From: Terriglobales bacterium
GTDB taxonomy: Bacteria > Acidobacteriota > Terriglobia > Bryobacterales > Bryobacteraceae
Length of the DNA: 64,000 bases
Assembly: GCA_027485675.1 (NCBI GenBank)
Contig: JAIXQP010000006.1
Location: 124,001-188,000 of the forward strand
Reading direction: 5' to 3'
Shown here piece by piece: positions 44,676 through 50,348 of this stretch; position 1 is the stretch's first letter, and the number at the start of each line of letters is the position of its first letter. The translations under genes were made by a program, and so were the position numbers. The notes beneath the pieces are model-generated. The model made no database searches, was not told the origin of the DNA, and saw only the letters and a list, made by a program, of their open reading frames with translations.

Positions 44676-44772
44676 ACTTAACCAGAGTCGCGCACTCCGG
44701 CCTAAAGTTTCAATCAAATGAATGCGTGACGGGATTTGTTTACCGCTGCCGCGTAAACTAGCGAGGGGACTC

Positions 44773-44805: not shown

Positions 44806-45444
44806 ATGAACGTTCGGCTTCTTATCGACGGCAACACGATCCTGGTCAGTAACACCCCTCCCCGGCGGGGTGAGGTGAACCTGCGGAACCAGCGGCTGGA
44901 CGCGACGGCGATGCGCGGTCTGCGGCAGATGCTGGCCGCGGAGCTGGGGGCGGCCGCACTGAAGCTTACCGACCAGAAGGTGCTCGAGGAGGCGGCCAAG
45001 CGGCTCGCCTCGAAACGCTGGACCCAGATTGTGGCGGACTCCGCCCCGCTGATGGGGCGCAGCGCCGGGGCGGAGACGGCGAAACCGACGAATGCGGAGG
45101 CCAAGGGCGGTAGCGGCTCCGGGTCCGGATCCGGAAGCGGCAAGGGGACGGGGAGCGGGTCGGGCAGCGGAACGGGCAGCAGCAGCGGCGGCGCAGGGAC
45201 GGGGACCGGCGGGGGCGCGGCGAAGGAACCAGACCTGACCTGGATTGAGATCCAGATCGTCGATGAGGACGGCCAGCCGCTGGTGGGCGAAACGTACGAA
45301 TTCAGCAAAACGGACGGCGCCGTGGCCAAGGGCACGACCTCCGGCGCGGCGCTACGGGGCGAGCAGATCCCTCCCGGCAAGTGCAAACTCAAACTGCCCG
45401 ACCTGCACAAGAACGGCTGGACGGGCCACGGCAAGGCGCGCTAA
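44806..45444 (+). CDS. Two-domain protein with Gly/Ser linker, candidate adaptor of the protease cassette
   Basis: 212 residues from ATG 44806. Residues 1-90 are a small alpha/beta region (NVRLLIDGNTILVSNTPPRR, LTDQKVLEEAAKRLASKRW). Residues 101-139 are almost only Gly, Ser and Thr. Residues 145-200 (WIEIQIVDEDGQPLVGETYE to GKCKLKLPDL) are a small beta domain of the type often appended to tip and adaptor proteins of contractile injection systems (VgrG/PAAR/LysM neighbours). No signal peptide. The product is read as a cargo adaptor for the protease encoded three bases downstream; this is inference from domain company. Confidence 0.65.
   Translation: MNVRLLIDGNTILVSNTPPRRGEVNLRNQRLDATAMRGLRQMLAAELGAAALKLTDQKVLEEAAKRLASKRWTQIVADSAPLMGRSAGAETAKPTNAEAKGGSGSGSGSGSGKGTGSGSGSGTGSSSGGAGTGTGGGAAKEPDLTWIEIQIVDEDGQPLVGETYEFSKTDGAVAKGTTSGAALRGEQIPPGKCKLKLPDLHKNGWTGHGKAR
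45106..45222 (+). repeat. Low-complexity Gly/Ser/Thr-coding tract
   Basis: Imperfect tandem GGC/AGC/TCC/ACG-type codons encode the interdomain linker of the adaptor-like protein. Such tracts can expand or contract by slippage. Codons are mixed, not a pure repeat unit, so selection on the peptide composition is more likely than recent slippage. Confidence 0.7.
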
Positions 45445-45447
45445 CCC

Positions 45448-48432
45448 ATGTCTGAGATCAAGATTACCCGCCGCGATTTCAACCTGCTGTTTGAACGGCA
45501 GACGACGACCGTCCATAAGATCGTGGTCACCCGCTTTCAGGGCCATCGTCTCGAGATGGAGGACTTCCACTTCCATCTCGACAGCGCCGTACTGATGCCG
45601 GACTACGACATCGAAGAGGGCGCCAAGGACCATGTGACCGCGTTGACGGTGCTGGCTACCGGCCTGGCGCACGCCAAGCTGAATCCCGCGCGGAAGGCGC
45701 TGGTGGCCGGGCACACGGATAGCTCTGGAGCCGCTGACTACAACATCAAGCTTTCGCAGCAGCGCGCTGATTGCGTGCTGGCCTGCTGGATGGGGGACAA
45801 GGCGGGCTTTACCAACATCTGCGTGGTGAAGAGCAAGACGGAGGATTATCAGCAGATCCTCAAGTGGGCCCATCAGTCGAAGGGTTGGGATTGTGATCCC
45901 GGGCCTATCGACAACTCGCATGGCAATGGCACGTCGACGGCGCTCAAGAACTTCAAAACGGCGTACAACGCCGAGTTTTCGCAGTCGCTGCCGATTACGG
46001 GCACTTGCGACAAGGCGACTTGGGACGCCTTTTTCGACCTGTACAACCAGGCCATCGCCAACTTTCTCTCTACCGACATTGAAGGCCTGGCGGCGTACCG
46101 GGCGGGGCTGAAGTTCGTCGACCCCGGCCGGAAGACGGTGGGATGCGGGGAGAGCTGGCCGGTAGAAGGCATCGGGGTGGATGGACTGCAGAGCGCGGCG
46201 AACCGCCGCGTGGAGATTCTGTTTTTTGATCCCGGCCAGGAGCCGCTGCTCGAATGCCATCCGGCGCCGAACCAGTGCAAGGCCACTGAATGCGAGCTCT
46301 ATTGGACGAAGTGCTTCAAGCACACGCCGATTCCCGTGAAGGCCGGCCCGGTGCCGGTAACGGACGAGCTGCTCGACATCGTGAGCTGCGACGATCACTT
46401 CGCTCCGTCGGCGGAGACGCTGAGCATTGCGTATAAGCTCAAGAGCCTGGAGGGCAAGCCGGTAACGCTCGAAATCACCTCGGCGCATGCGGACGCCACG
46501 CCTCTGTTCTCGAAGGAATTGACGCCAGAAGAAAAGACCTCGGGCGACCACACGTTTGAATGGGACGGCAAGCCCACAGCCGGGGCGCTGAAGGGTTTGT
46601 ACATCCATCCGCTGTGGTCGCCCTACAAGGTGACACTGAAGAGCGGCAGCTTGCAGGACGAGGCAGAGTTCAAGGTCCTTTATCATTCTGTCGAGATTTC
46701 GCGCGGCCCTTGGGCGCATGACGAGAAAGCTCCGCCCAATTCAGACCAAAAGAATTGGGTGGCCTACCGACTGAACGAACTGGGTTTTTATGGTGGTCCC
46801 GTGTACCATGACCGCGAAAGCTACCTGGATAAAGCGATCATCCGGTACAAGGTCAATCACAAGGCCATGCACCTGAAGTACATCAAGGACTACAAGCCGG
46901 ACATCACGCCGGCTTTGCTAGCGGCCTTGAGCGCGGGCGACAACAAGCGGGTGGATGTTGAACCGGAGGCGATCAAGGATCCCACTGCTACTTCTCGTAT
47001 CTGGGTCGAGGGGCTGACTTATGAGCGGACTACCGGGACCGGGAACGAGTTCCGCGACAAGATCAACCGGGCGACGACGGATGCGGAACGCCTCAACCGC
47101 CCTATCCTGCCGCTGGAAGTCGAGATCTTCCTCAAGTCCAAGTCCGATGCCAAGACGGCAGCGCCAGAAGCGATCGGGCCGGTTCGCGTCAACTGGAAGC
47201 ATACGGACATTGACGAAGATCTGACGCTGCTGCCGGAGGACAAAGCCTCCTCGCCGAGCAAGGCCCGCAAGTACGTCGAGAAGGCGCATAAGCTGGAAGG
47301 CGGCGGCCCGGGGATGGATAACTGCCCGCGCTCGCTCGGCGGCATCCGGAATCCGGCCGCGACGCAATATCAGGCTCCTTGGTTCCAGGGCACGCCGTAC
47401 GAGCCCTACAATGTGGAAGACGACGCGGCCAACAAGACGGTGTTCGTCAAGGCGTGTACGGATAAGGCGAAGTACCCGAAGCGCCTGGGCCGGGCCGGCA
47501 TCATGGTCCGGACGTCCATCATTGCCGGCGATGACTATAAGTTCAAGGCCGAGATTGACTTTACCGGAGAGCCGAACAAGGCGGACCTTGAAAAGTTCCA
47601 CGGCTACACGAACGAGGCGTCCCGCATCCATGCCGACACGGGCATCTTTCGCGTCTGGCGGCAGAACCGGGTGGCCTACGAGGTGAACTGGCCGGCGCGG
47701 ACCGGCGGCGGGGAGTGGGATCTGATCCACAACGAGTATAAGGCCGCGTATCTGGATCTCGACGTGGATGGGATGGCTAAGGTCAAGATCTCTGAGGTAC
47801 TGACGCAGAAGCAGTATCAGGATATTGTCATCGCGAATACCGCCAACAAAGTTCGTGCGAATATCTCTCTCAAGGACACAGCGGTGTATGGACTCACCCT
47901 GCCGGCTCAGGGAGCGACGGAGTCCCCCGATGACTACCGTACCCGGCTAAACACACTGACGGGCGCACAATACTGGGATCTGATCGTGGAACCGATCGTC
48001 GAAGCCCTCGGAGCCGCCATTCGACCCAAGGCCCCGGTAGGATTCGTGGTGATGAACTTCCATACGCACGAAGCCGTGGACGTGAAGAAGACAGACGGTA
48101 CCATTGACGAGGCTGGATACATCTCGTGGACCACTTCGTATGGCAAGGCGGACTCTCACGCCATGATCGATATGAAAGACGTCGATAAGGTCTACTACGT
48201 CGTCGGCCACGAAATGGGGCACAATCTGTATCTTCGGCATTCAGACAACACGCCCGACAACCCGCCGGGCCATCACGACACCGAGGATCACAACTGCATC
48301 ATGTCCTACTCATCGAGATCCTCGGGCTTTGCGCACCAAGCCCCGGGGGTCTTTGCGCCACGTTTCTGCGGCAAGTGCAATCTAAAAATGCGCGGGTGGG
48401 ATATGGACAAGCTGCCCGGAGACTCCAAGTAG
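45448..48432 (+). CDS. Large OmpA/peptidoglycan-binding protein with C-terminal metzincin-like zinc protease
   Basis: 994 residues, no signal peptide. Residues about 55-115 form the first half of an OmpA-like domain (LVAGHTDSSGAADYNIKLSQ); its second half (SAANRRVEILFFDPG, 249-263) comes after an inserted peptidoglycan-binding-type segment (LKNFKTAYN...GTCDKATWDAFFDLY, 166-199). A second such segment is at about 436-470 (NWVAYRLNELGFYGG). The middle is unassigned. The C-terminal domain has HEMGHNLYLRH (921-931), a HExxHxxxxxH zinc motif, followed by the Met-turn-like HNCIMSY (948-954) and a Cys pair FCGKC. The consensus Gly at the eighth position is Tyr. Read as a secreted effector or cell-wall-targeted protease. 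Part of the sequence is locally AT-richer (47821-47880 is 27/60 GC), hinting at transfer. Confidence 0.75.
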   Translation: MSEIKITRRDFNLLFERQTTTVHKIVVTRFQGHRLEMEDFHFHLDSAVLMPDYDIEEGAKDHVTALTVLATGLAHAKLNPARKALVAGHTDSSGAADYNIKLSQQRADCVLACWMGDKAGFTNICVVKSKTEDYQQILKWAHQSKGWDCDPGPIDNSHGNGTSTALKNFKTAYNAEFSQSLPITGTCDKATWDAFFDLYNQAIANFLSTDIEGLAAYRAGLKFVDPGRKTVGCGESWPVEGIGVDGLQSAANRRVEILFFDPGQEPLLECHPAPNQCKATECELYWTKCFKHTPIPVKAGPVPVTDELLDIVSCDDHFAPSAETLSIAYKLKSLEGKPVTLEITSAHADATPLFSKELTPEEKTSGDHTFEWDGKPTAGALKGLYIHPLWSPYKVTLKSGSLQDEAEFKVLYHSVEISRGPWAHDEKAPPNSDQKNWVAYRLNELGFYGGPVYHDRESYLDKAIIRYKVNHKAMHLKYIKDYKPDITPALLAALSAGDNKRVDVEPEAIKDPTATSRIWVEGLTYERTTGTGNEFRDKINRATTDAERLNRPILPLEVEIFLKSKSDAKTAAPEAIGPVRVNWKHTDIDEDLTLLPEDKASSPSKARKYVEKAHKLEGGGPGMDNCPRSLGGIRNPAATQYQAPWFQGTPYEPYNVEDDAANKTVFVKACTDKAKYPKRLGRAGIMVRTSIIAGDDYKFKAEIDFTGEPNKADLEKFHGYTNEASRIHADTGIFRVWRQNRVAYEVNWPARTGGGEWDLIHNEYKAAYLDLDVDGMAKVKISEVLTQKQYQDIVIANTANKVRANISLKDTAVYGLTLPAQGATESPDDYRTRLNTLTGAQYWDLIVEPIVEALGAAIRPKAPVGFVVMNFHTHEAVDVKKTDGTIDEAGYISWTTSYGKADSHAMIDMKDVDKVYYVVGHEMGHNLYLRHSDNTPDNPPGHHDTEDHNCIMSYSSRSSGFAHQAPGVFAPRFCGKCNLKMRGWDMDKLPGDSK

Positions 48433-48438
48433 ACCCCG

Positions 48439-49863
48439 ATGCCCTTCCACCTCCAACTCGCCACGACGACCCGGGACATCACCACCTTCGATTCGCCGAA
48501 GCTGCAATTGACGCTCTCGCACGATGACGACAAGACGCTGATGGTGCCCAAGCCCTCCCGCGACGGCGGCGCATTGACCATCCTGTTTCGCGACGCGGCG
48601 GGCGACCCGGTGCGGCGGGTGAGTTCCCTGCTCCGGCAGCAACTCTTCAACACCGGGCGGGTGGACGAGACGCTGGTCCTTGAACCGCTGGCGCCGGGGG
48701 GATCGCTGACGTGGACGGTGAATCTGGCCAAGTACATGTGGCCGCTGGCGGCGGGCGAGTATACGGCCACGGCATACCTGGCTTGTCCCGGCGAGACGAA
48801 TCCGGTGCAGAGTTCGCCGCTTACGCTCCGGGTCAAACCGGCTAAGCTGACCGACCTTGACGACGACCGCGACAACCCGATCCTCGACCGCCTGGATCTT
48901 CTGCTGACCAGCCAAGGCGACGGCGCGGCCCGGGCGTGGCTCCGGCAGTTTAATCCGGGACGGCCGCTCGGCGCCTGGTACAACGAGCCGGTGCCCATGC
49001 TTCCCGGCGCCGCGAACCTATTCTGCGCGGCGGCGGCTTTCCGGCAGACCGAGAGCTTTGAGCCGACGATGCGGCGGTGGATCGTGTGGCAGAACGGGAC
49101 GCAGGTGCAGGCGGCCCAGGTGTCAGAGGGCAAACCGACGGGCCTCGGCAAACGCGGGAAGGCGCCCGCCGGCCGCCAGCTTCTGCGTCAAGCCTTTTAC
49201 AACGCCGCCAATCAGCTCTACATTCTGTTCTGGAACCCTTCCGGGCGTCTTGAGTGCTGCGAGCTGACCGAATCGGCCGTGGTTCCGGTGGCGGCTTTTC
49301 CGCTGCCGGTGCAGGACCCAAGCCAGTTGGTGGTCCGATGCCTGGACGAGGTGCTCCACATTGCCGGCCCCCATGAGGGGCTGACGTATTGGACCGCGAG
49401 CCTGCAGGGGAAGATTCTGTCGACGAAGCTCATCCACGCCTCGCCGTTGCCGTTGCGGGCCGTGACCGTGCAGCCGGAGTTTGGCCGGTTTACCGCCATC
49501 TTCAGCGAGCCGGGCGACCCGCCGACGATTGAGATGGTCCTGCTGGACCCGCGCTACCGGGAGCAGCCGTTCATCGTCCGCCGGGAGTTGCCGATCGCCG
49601 GTCCGTTTCCGGAACTGGCCATGGACGCCGACCGGAACGGACGGTTTCATCTGCTGGTGACGACTACCGGGCAGCAGCTGTACTACTGTGGACCCAATCT
49701 GGAGCCGCTGCTGCTGGCCACCGGCGAAGAGCGTTACTTCCCGCGGGTTCTCTGTCCAGGCCAAGTGTATCTGGGTTTCTATGAACATGCGGCGGGTTAC
49801 CGCTTCCGCCAGTTCGCCACGAGCGCCAATCCGCCCGCGTTTCTCGAGTACCAAAACCTATGA
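48439..49863 (+). CDS. BsuPI-like N-terminal domain plus propeller-like protein, candidate inhibitor in the cassette
   Basis: 474 residues without a signal peptide. The first 135 residues look like a beta-sandwich (KLQLTLSHDD, TILFRDAAGDPVRRV, LEPLAPGGSLTWTVNL, LAAGEYTATAYL, SSPLTLRVKPA), a pattern close to that of BsuPI-type intracellular proteinase inhibitor domains. The rest (about 150-474) is repeated strands (PTMRRWIVWQNGTQVQAAQV, NAANQLYILFWNPSGRLECC, GPFPELAMDADRNGRFHLLV) suggesting a beta-propeller. I do not recognise a named family. It lies six bases after the protease gene and overlaps the next gene by ATGA, so the three are probably one transcript. A role as inhibitor or chaperone of the protease is inference. 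Confidence 0.6.
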   Translation: MPFHLQLATTTRDITTFDSPKLQLTLSHDDDKTLMVPKPSRDGGALTILFRDAAGDPVRRVSSLLRQQLFNTGRVDETLVLEPLAPGGSLTWTVNLAKYMWPLAAGEYTATAYLACPGETNPVQSSPLTLRVKPAKLTDLDDDRDNPILDRLDLLLTSQGDGAARAWLRQFNPGRPLGAWYNEPVPMLPGAANLFCAAAAFRQTESFEPTMRRWIVWQNGTQVQAAQVSEGKPTGLGKRGKAPAGRQLLRQAFYNAANQLYILFWNPSGRLECCELTESAVVPVAAFPLPVQDPSQLVVRCLDEVLHIAGPHEGLTYWTASLQGKILSTKLIHASPLPLRAVTVQPEFGRFTAIFSEPGDPPTIEMVLLDPRYREQPFIVRRELPIAGPFPELAMDADRNGRFHLLVTTTGQQLYYCGPNLEPLLLATGEERYFPRVLCPGQVYLGFYEHAAGYRFRQFATSANPPAFLEYQNL

Positions 49864-50348
49864 CGCGGCGGTGCTTCCTCTTCTTTCCCTGCTTCGCACC
49901 GAGCGCCCCCATGTTTAGCCTGGACCTTCGCCTGACCGGAACCCAATTGACGGCCACTTTGCGCAACCAGGGAAAGACGGCGCAGCGATACTTTCATCAC
50001 CGGATGATTCAGCCGGTTACTCTGACGCTGGTGGACGCCAAGGGCCGCCAGGTGGAGCCGGAGGATACCCGCGAGACGGCTAAGTTCGACGCGACGCCTT
50101 ACCAGGACCTGTACCAGGTGCTCGATCCCGGCGCCGCGGTGACGCTGCTGACCGCGGAGGTGCAGCGGGGCGCGCTTCGCTGGGGCCCGCTGCAGTGGAG
50201 AGATCTGGCTCCGGGCCGTTACACGGCGACGGCCCGCCTCGACCATCAGAGGAACCAATGGGTGGACCGGGCGACGAAACAGACCGGGACTTGGCCGGAC
50301 CTCTGGCGCGGAGAACTTACCTCGCGGCCGATTCCTTTGAAAATTTAA
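49860..50348 (+). CDS. Small exported BsuPI-like beta-sandwich protein, candidate immunity protein
   Basis: 162 residues with a signal-like N-terminus (TRRCFLFFPCFAPSAPMFS). The body reads FSLDLRLTGTQLTATLRNQG, TLTLVDAKGRQVEPED, VLDPGAAVTLLTAEVQ, DLAPGRYTATARLD and ends SRPIPLKI, matching in order the first domain of the preceding protein (LTLSHDD, TILFRDAAGDPV, LAPGGSLTWTV, AAGEYTATAYL, SSPLTLRV). An exported single-domain inhibitor next to a protease that may act in the envelope is the arrangement expected of an immunity protein, but no experiment is known to me. Last gene of the cassette. Confidence 0.6.
   Translation: MTRRCFLFFPCFAPSAPMFSLDLRLTGTQLTATLRNQGKTAQRYFHHRMIQPVTLTLVDAKGRQVEPEDTRETAKFDATPYQDLYQVLDPGAAVTLLTAEVQRGALRWGPLQWRDLAPGRYTATARLDHQRNQWVDRATKQTGTWPDLWRGELTSRPIPLKI

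Follow-up and report, generated by a model that had tools for sequence, protein, structure and literature searches.

A four-gene locus of a Terriglobales bacterium as a probable orphan type VI secretion effector module with a metzincin-type protease and a proposed cognate inhibitor

We analysed a stretch of 64,000 nucleotides from a Terriglobales bacterium (the window; contig C16 of the 6.59-Mb assembly G000, which has 54 contigs) and focused on a four-gene locus at positions 44806-50348 of its + strand. We propose that this locus is probably an orphan effector module of the type VI secretion system (T6SS), consisting of a spike adaptor (g1), a metzincin effector (g2), its cognate inhibitor (g3) and a fourth, unproven component (g4). 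The observations behind this proposal are the homologies of the proteins, the pairing of effector and partner genes, and a VgrG-linked gene row in a relative that belongs to another family of the phylum (locus L094). A first-pass annotation of the window had described four open reading frames (ORFs) with gaps of 3 and 6 nt, an ATGA overlap, and zinc-site and Met-turn motifs, all of which were borne out on re-reading. The genes are as follows.

44806..45444, + strand: g1, 212 aa (240 aa with a start at 44722), with an N-terminal domain, a Gly/Ser linker and a C-terminal TTR-like domain
45448..48432, + strand: g2, 994 aa, proposed T6SS effector
48439..49863, + strand: g3, 474 aa, proposed cognate inhibitor or immunity protein
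49860..50348, + strand: g4, 162 aa, beginning with MTRR and a short hydrophobic stretch (hydropathy 1.62; threshold 1.9)

All four genes are real and are under purifying selection. The ratio of non-synonymous to synonymous substitution rates (dN/dS) was 0.045-0.319 in all 16 g1-g4 comparisons, and dS exceeded 1 in 14 of these.

The enzymatic assignment of g2 comes from its C-terminal part, where the following features were located.

48025..48429, + strand: metzincin-type domain, g2 residues ~860-994, recognised by PF12388 (Peptidase_M57) over its cut-off and by comparison of profile A1 with the PDB
48208..48240, + strand: zinc-site motif HEMGHNLYLRH, g2 residues 921-931; HExxHxxxxxH in 18 of 18 homologous loci
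48295..48309, + strand: CIMSY, candidate Met-turn, g2 residues 950-954; CxMxY in 18 of 18 homologous loci

Metzincins are defined by the three-histidine zinc motif HExxHxxGxxH together with the methionine of the Met-turn. The third histidine stands at the metzincin spacing in the family, and the usual glycine is replaced in all 18 loci except L094 (HEIGHTLGIAH). The best PDB matches of profile A1 were secreted protease C (4e-5) and ADAM8 (0.0052), followed by matrix metalloproteinases at 0.53 and above; every match below E 0.7 was a metalloprotease, and unrelated chains appeared only from 0.77 upwards. Among 13 family members searched against Pfam at E 0.1, Reprolysin_5 matched seven and Peptidase_M57 two. 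An alignment of 13 rows (g2 residue number = alignment number + 730) has as invariant positions G135, H191, E192, H195, H201, H213, D214, C220, M222, Y224, C244, C247, L249, R252, G253 and W254. Four of these, H943, C950, C974 and C977 in g2 numbering, could form a second metal site. Archaemetzincins hold a second metal; they appeared among the PDB matches of profile A1 only at E 0.12 and above. The AlphaFold model of g2 540-994, built from five close rows, was of low confidence (mean pLDDT 30.5) and was not used.

Homologues of the effector were found at 18 distinct loci: G000:C16 (the window), G004:C20, G053:C52, G062:C82, G032:C112, G050:C142, G028:C7, G064:C1 (twice), G028:C39, G004:C4, G000:C13, G004:C11, G004:C7, G062:C784, G409:C612, G322:C249 and G032:C147. 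The family is patchy, being present in 8 of the 81 family genomes once one weak match is dropped, and six of those eight hold at least two loci. In the phylum sample, profile A1 matched at least 4 of 396 genomes, a lower bound as six candidates were scored per listed genome. Neither the 18 loci nor the eight genomes include G079/L092 (METZ match at 6e-5, no CxMxY, no partner) or G429 (8e-6, short contig). Likewise, the 18 do not comprise L008/L042 (motif HEAAH), the 1315-aa HECGH protein of L034, or the window's orthologues in L011, L013 and L015; L012 is apparently the locus G004:C20. A match in L016 (Caulobacter) covered 20 residues only and was dropped. A homologue of g3 lies directly downstream of the effector in 16 of the 17 readable loci. 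Ten of these 16 are positive by construction; seven loci lay outside the model, and in six of them (L043, L095, L086, L088, L093 and L094) the partner was present, the seventh, L087, having none. Effector and downstream partner are inherited together.

Several additional loci touch on the two families. The same genome has a second metzincin effector of 1232 aa with its own g3-type partner (L009:13119-18273, G000:C13), its upstream region being cut by the contig end. At L087:9318-15623 (G004:C7) the effector, 2101 aa long, has two sets of the metzincin motifs and is preceded by LysM-like and TTR genes. A related OmpA/peptidoglycan-binding effector with a HEAAH end and an internal TTR match (7e-9) occurs at L008:7491-11044 (G000:C31) and L042:7709-11373 (G004:C1), and is followed by a 226-aa lipobox protein whose likeness to the g3 sandwich falls short of significance (E 0.06-0.14). 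The HECGH protein of 1315 aa at L034:4281-9525 (G032:C112) has its own TTR-type gene upstream and is followed by a 437-aa protein; neither protein matched the metzincin or partner models. A g3-type partner gene with no effector gene before it was seen at L089:3600-5117 (G062:C818), L037 has a partner gene near a broken effector-like stretch, and G012 and G030 gave partner-like matches with no effector match within the stretches read.

The role proposed for g3 follows from a modelled structure, in which two parts can be distinguished.

48439..48846, + strand: N-terminal beta-sandwich of g3, residues 1-136, resembling the AsaP1 propeptide and BsuPI
48898..49860, + strand: beta-propeller-like part of g3, residues ~154-474, from the structure model, with 135-258 mostly below pLDDT 50

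The solved structure closest to the modelled N-domain is the propeptide part of AsaP1 (2x3a), an M35 aspzincin of Aeromonas salmonicida, to which there is also a weak sequence similarity. We take residues 23-159 of AsaP1 to be its propeptide, inhibitory to its enzyme. The modelled N-domain also shares the beta-sandwich fold of BsuPI (3isy), the intracellular proteinase inhibitor of Bacillus subtilis. In AsaP1 the propeptide acts in cis on an aspzincin, whereas in g3 the domain belongs to a separate protein, is followed by a propeller and has a metzincin as its counterpart. No Pfam or NCBIfam family matched g3, and the Pfam BsuPI model at E 1 matched none of the 12 members of A2 (g3) or the five of A6 (g4). 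The first-pass annotation had seen two BsuPI-like inhibitor proteins here; the likeness stands for g3, whose modelled N-domain resembles BsuPI, and could not be demonstrated for g4 (hmmsearch against the g3-sandwich profile, E 0.14; hhalign probability 19.9, 17 columns). From the model, g3 is proposed to be the cognate inhibitor of g2.

The location of the partners bears on what they do. Signal-like starts under a hydropathy rule (threshold 1.9; some start codons picked by hand) were found in 8 of the 13 partners examined (L033b, L035, L036, L038, L039, L040, L088 and L095), those of L086, L093 and L094 standing outside the count. The remaining five (g3 of the window, L032, L033a, L041 and L009) lack such a start, and no signal peptide was detected in g3 by this rule. 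An alternative is that g3, and g4 with it, serve as dedicated chaperones or loading factors, which would hold g2 in a folded, inactive state up to its arrival at the spike, immunity being unneeded if the substrate is absent from the producer's own envelope or the target is eukaryotic. The five starts without a signal, the propeller, which is large for an inhibitor, and the L087 effector without any partner are in line with this possibility. However, signal-like starts in the other eight would be needless for a cytoplasmic chaperone, the g3 N-domain is closest to the propeptide part of a protease, and partners without a recognised effector (L089, and L037 near a broken one) are expected of immunity genes. 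We consider the chaperone explanation unlikely.

The last gene of the locus, g4, is conserved in L011, L012, L013 and L015. It had no Pfam or NCBIfam match over a cut-off and no PDB match at E 5, and no g4-like ORF was seen downstream of the g3 homologue in L032. Its start may be a weak, possible export signal, and a function in envelope immunity is a guess.

The link to the T6SS spike was provided by g1, through the following domain.

45232..45441, + strand: C-terminal domain of g1, homologous to the C-terminus of the own genome's VgrG

A profile hidden Markov model built from g1-type rows, with the VgrG row left out, retrieved the genome's own VgrG at 1.2e-23 among 2578 ORFs; the adaptor-like character that the first-pass annotation had given to g1 was thereby strengthened. 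The label TTR-like for this domain is by analogy with VgrG2b. A same-strand TTR match lies upstream of the effector in 12 of the 16 readable loci (the window, L043, L032, L033, L034, L035, L038, L039, L040, L087, L088 and L094), five of which (the window, L032, L033, L034 and L035) were themselves rows of the model. None was found in L036, L041, L086 and L096. Two loci were left out of the 16, namely L009 (contig edge) and L093, where the effector is 0.8 kb from the contig start and the TTR gene is on the opposite strand. From these homologies g1 is proposed to be a spike adaptor. Upstream of the adaptor genes of some metzincin modules there is a further family of ~250-280 aa (L035:6732-7475, L038:6233-7075, L039:13175-13948 and L040:5267-6046); its L035 member had no Pfam match.

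In L094, one strand carries in succession the genes for a VgrG tail, a DUF4123 protein, an unnamed protein, a TTR protein, a LysM/peptidoglycan-binding protein, a metzincin and a homologue of g3. Both Gp5_trimer_C on the VgrG tail and DUF4123 (7.9e-26) were over their Pfam cut-offs. DUF4123 is a family of T6SS effector chaperones. Together with the g1 homology, this row points to a physical or homology link of the module to spike components. In the own genome, a cluster on contig C9 (L030/L031) reads as TssB, TssC, Hcp, TagJ, TssA, TssE, TssF, TssG, TssH, VgrG, a LysM/peptidoglycan-binding protein and PAAR; VgrG, TssC and PG_binding_1 are family matches, and the other names come from reading of the sequences. 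VgrG and, by reading, PAAR, which the first-pass annotation had suggested looking for elsewhere in the genome, lie on the C9 cluster, apart from the cassette. Its idea of an orphan cargo that a contractile injection system would carry, and that lies away from VgrG here, is supported, and the VgrG homology and L094 indicate a T6SS. A stand-alone divergent TssC-like gene, a second and weaker PF05943 match, is at L098:14883-16466 (G000:C54); a second T6SS on this contig was rejected, as no other T6SS genes were recognised around the match.

Alternatively, the module could be cargo of an extracellular contractile injection system (eCIS). Its cargo-like build would suit this, and the excerpted text of PMC10673891 counts LysM proteins among the core eCIS components. 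Against it, the end of g1 matches a T6SS VgrG and the VgrG-linked relative L094 carries DUF4123. An eCIS operon elsewhere in the genome, also raised by the first-pass annotation, gained no support: the sheath family PF04984 had no match in the own genome at E 0.01, control genomes being positive. We regard eCIS cargo as extremely improbable.

TssC was present in 8 of 8 effector-holding family genomes compared with 55 of 81 in the background (p 0.038, not corrected for kinship, with the weak ninth genome dropped). The T6SS module has its caveats: the L087 effector has no downstream partner gene, and in this assembly there was no match to the TssK, TssL or TssM model. TssK was found in 56 and TssL in 53 of the same 81 genomes, among them the two other genomes of the genus that were searched. 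For a sister genome, the flanks of TssK-TssL were compared with the 6-kb end stretches of the 54 contigs (an inner stretch in the case of C13), and no orthologous flank was seen, so loss of TssK/L/M and missing sequence are indistinguishable. Two TssK genes are close together beside TssL at L104:11545-17800 (G004:C10), and genomes of this family commonly give two TssK matches. If the genome's T6SS has lost TssK/L/M, the cassette may be decaying or unused, a view with which the reading of the L015 g3 in two frames would also agree. However, dN/dS is well below 1 for g1-g4, the frames are intact in the window and in L011-L013, and both searched congeners hold TssK and TssL, which makes decay highly improbable.

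The remaining part of g2 has a modular build, which we describe for the T6SS effector reading.

45676..45795, + strand: OmpA-like segment, g2 residues 77-116 (PF00691 27.4 bits, cut-off 27.2; YfiB model 3.2e-11, below its cut-off)
45850..46029, + strand: PG_binding_1-like segment, g2 residues 135-194 (PF01471 17.3 bits, below the cut-off of 23)
46384..46710, + strand: FlgD-Ig-like segment, g2 residues ~313-421, common to the homologues, with a Pfam score below cut-off
47095..47697, + strand: middle domain, g2 residues ~550-750, common to homologues whose N-terminal parts differ

OmpA and peptidoglycan-binding segments had been noted before in g2; the former passes its Pfam cut-off and the latter falls short of it. 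The NCBIfam matches of g2 were OmpA-type lipoprotein models, all under their cut-offs. No VgrG family was among its Pfam matches at E 1, and g2 is therefore not fused to VgrG. The Ig-like segment, middle domain and metzincin form the common core of the family, and the N-termini vary, being of OmpA/peptidoglycan-binding type in the window and, by alignment, in L033 and L034, LysM-like by reading in L036, L041 and L009 (of which L009 gave no Pfam match), and missing ahead of the Ig-like segment in L035 and L038-L040. As judged from these sequences, a constant core with a changing N-terminus is the build of polymorphic effectors. A protein like the OmpA/peptidoglycan-binding part of g2 (25% over residues 79-278) occurs at L010:7912-11165 (G000:C10), and the gene after it is a tyrosinase by appearance, perhaps another cargo module.

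A housekeeping or exported envelope protease with a regulator, as in serralysin/AprI or Listeria Mtz/Tim, is a further alternative, given that metzincins are known to pair with inhibitors or inhibitor-like proteins of the envelope outside the T6SS (Listeria Mtz/Tim and Pseudomonas alkaline protease/AprI; excerpt of PMC8235301) and that the locus is stable within one lineage. In those pairs, however, the enzymes are secreted and the inhibitors have other folds (TIMP-like, AprI), and the excerpt mentions no T6SS adaptor. By eye, g2 has no N-terminal hydrophobic segment and no visible signal peptide, and its family is patchy and multi-copy, keeps its core while changing the N-terminal parts, and has T6SS-type adaptor genes adjacent in 12 of 16 loci. 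An envelope protease of this kind is very improbable.

Known T6SS components offer closer parallels. VgrG2b of the Pseudomonas aeruginosa H2-T6SS has a TTR-like part and a HEXXH metallopeptidase within a single VgrG protein, and the periplasmic immunity protein PA0261 neutralises it by binding (PMC6899460, in the excerpt used). The TTR-like part and the HEXXH metallopeptidase are features in common, as would be T6SS delivery and a cognate periplasmic immunity protein; the enzyme is fused to VgrG there, whereas here it would be free cargo with a stand-alone TTR adaptor and has an HExxHxxxxxH + CxMSY site. In vgrG loci, binding between VgrG and effector is helped by LysM proteins, and PG_binding_1 proteins have a similar genetic organisation (PMC10673891, same excerpt as above); since such proteins aid this binding, the peptidoglycan-binding part of g2 may serve for loading, for anchoring to the wall or for both. 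Domains of these kinds are found as separate proteins or at effector N-termini, including the OmpA/peptidoglycan-binding part of g2. The effectors in that excerpt are not described as metzincins, and in the text of that paper metalloprotease occurs once and OmpA not at all. A LysM/peptidoglycan-binding type gene is present in L033, L034, L035, L087, L094 and L096, identified by Pfam in L094 and beside the own VgrG and by reading in the others.

We then asked about the age of the locus in the lineage. Related metagenome-assembled genomes (Acidobacteria, Sulfopaludibacter or Bryobacteraceae) hold g1-g4 complete, with identical neighbours on both sides, in L011, L012, L013 and L015, where g2 identity is 69-89%. 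A fifth, L014, has the upstream neighbours, g1, and g2 through residue 519, where its contig ends. About 1.6 kb extra separates two upstream neighbours in L012, L014 and L015. Between the window and L015, where g3 is split over two frames, identity was 0.63 for g1, 0.69 for whole g2 (0.83 for residues 20-290 and 0.54 for 860-994), 0.46 for the compared part of g3 and 0.48 for g4, and for the three flanking genes it was 0.85 (HDOD), 0.89 (presumably DUF1501) and 0.95 (presumably TldD-like). The contrast between flank and cassette is not uniform, as the HDOD gene (0.75) is no better preserved than g3 (0.69) between the window and L013. Departures in composition are mild: GC of g2 is 59.4% against 64.2 +/- 2.0% in 3-kb windows, and GC at third codon positions is 0.777 against 0.828 +/- 0.032. 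The first-pass annotation took a low-GC stretch (47821-47880) as support for transfer; 60-base stretches with GC as low number 12 among 1066, and the neighbours are the same in L011, L012, L013 and L015 (upstream in L014), so this claim could not be upheld. In view of the synteny recent transfer is not supported, and the position is not atypical. No plasmid homologue was matched for g2 (1e-3) or g3 (1e-2). Because related genomes hold it between the same neighbours and its GC departures are mild, the cassette is a long-standing resident locus of the lineage.

The T6SS module would operate as follows. The TTR-like domain of g1, which is related to the VgrG C-terminal domain but stands by itself, would attach the cargo to the tip of VgrG. 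The cargo would be g2, whose OmpA/peptidoglycan-binding part would load it and/or attach it to the prey wall, and whose C-terminal zinc metzincin would cleave envelope proteins of the target bacterium. The beta-sandwich of g3, which sits on a beta-propeller and resembles an inhibitory propeptide provided in trans, would keep the protease inactive in the producer cytoplasm; this cytoplasmic action is proposed because no signal peptide is visible in this clade. Partners with signal-like starts in relatives would protect the periplasm, and in this clade g4 may be the exported protection.

T6SS metallopeptidase effectors are already known, and what would be new is the combination of metzincin cargo with this family of partners, which are probable cognate inhibitors. 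Literature at the level of titles and abstract openings describes no T6SS metzincin with a BsuPI-type immunity protein; no paper found combines 'BsuPI' with 'immunity protein', and none on Acidobacteriota T6SS effectors emerged by title from a phylum-directed search. A broader generalisation, which we put forward only tentatively, is that the partners are a new immunity family, an AsaP1/BsuPI-type sandwich detached from its protease and set on a beta-propeller, that blocks T6SS-delivered metzincins as a trans propeptide; that the toxins have a second Cys/His site after the Met-turn; and that free VgrG-tip-domain adaptors load orphan modules from anywhere in the genome on one spike. If the module is what we propose, a modular family of metzincin toxins and a partner family without a Pfam name would be added to T6SS biology in Acidobacteriota. 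If the partner is a trans propeptide, a single inhibitory fold would underlie both protease-toxin immunity and protease prodomains. Searches for orphan T6SS cargo could also use stand-alone TTR adaptors with Gly/Ser linkers as a handle.

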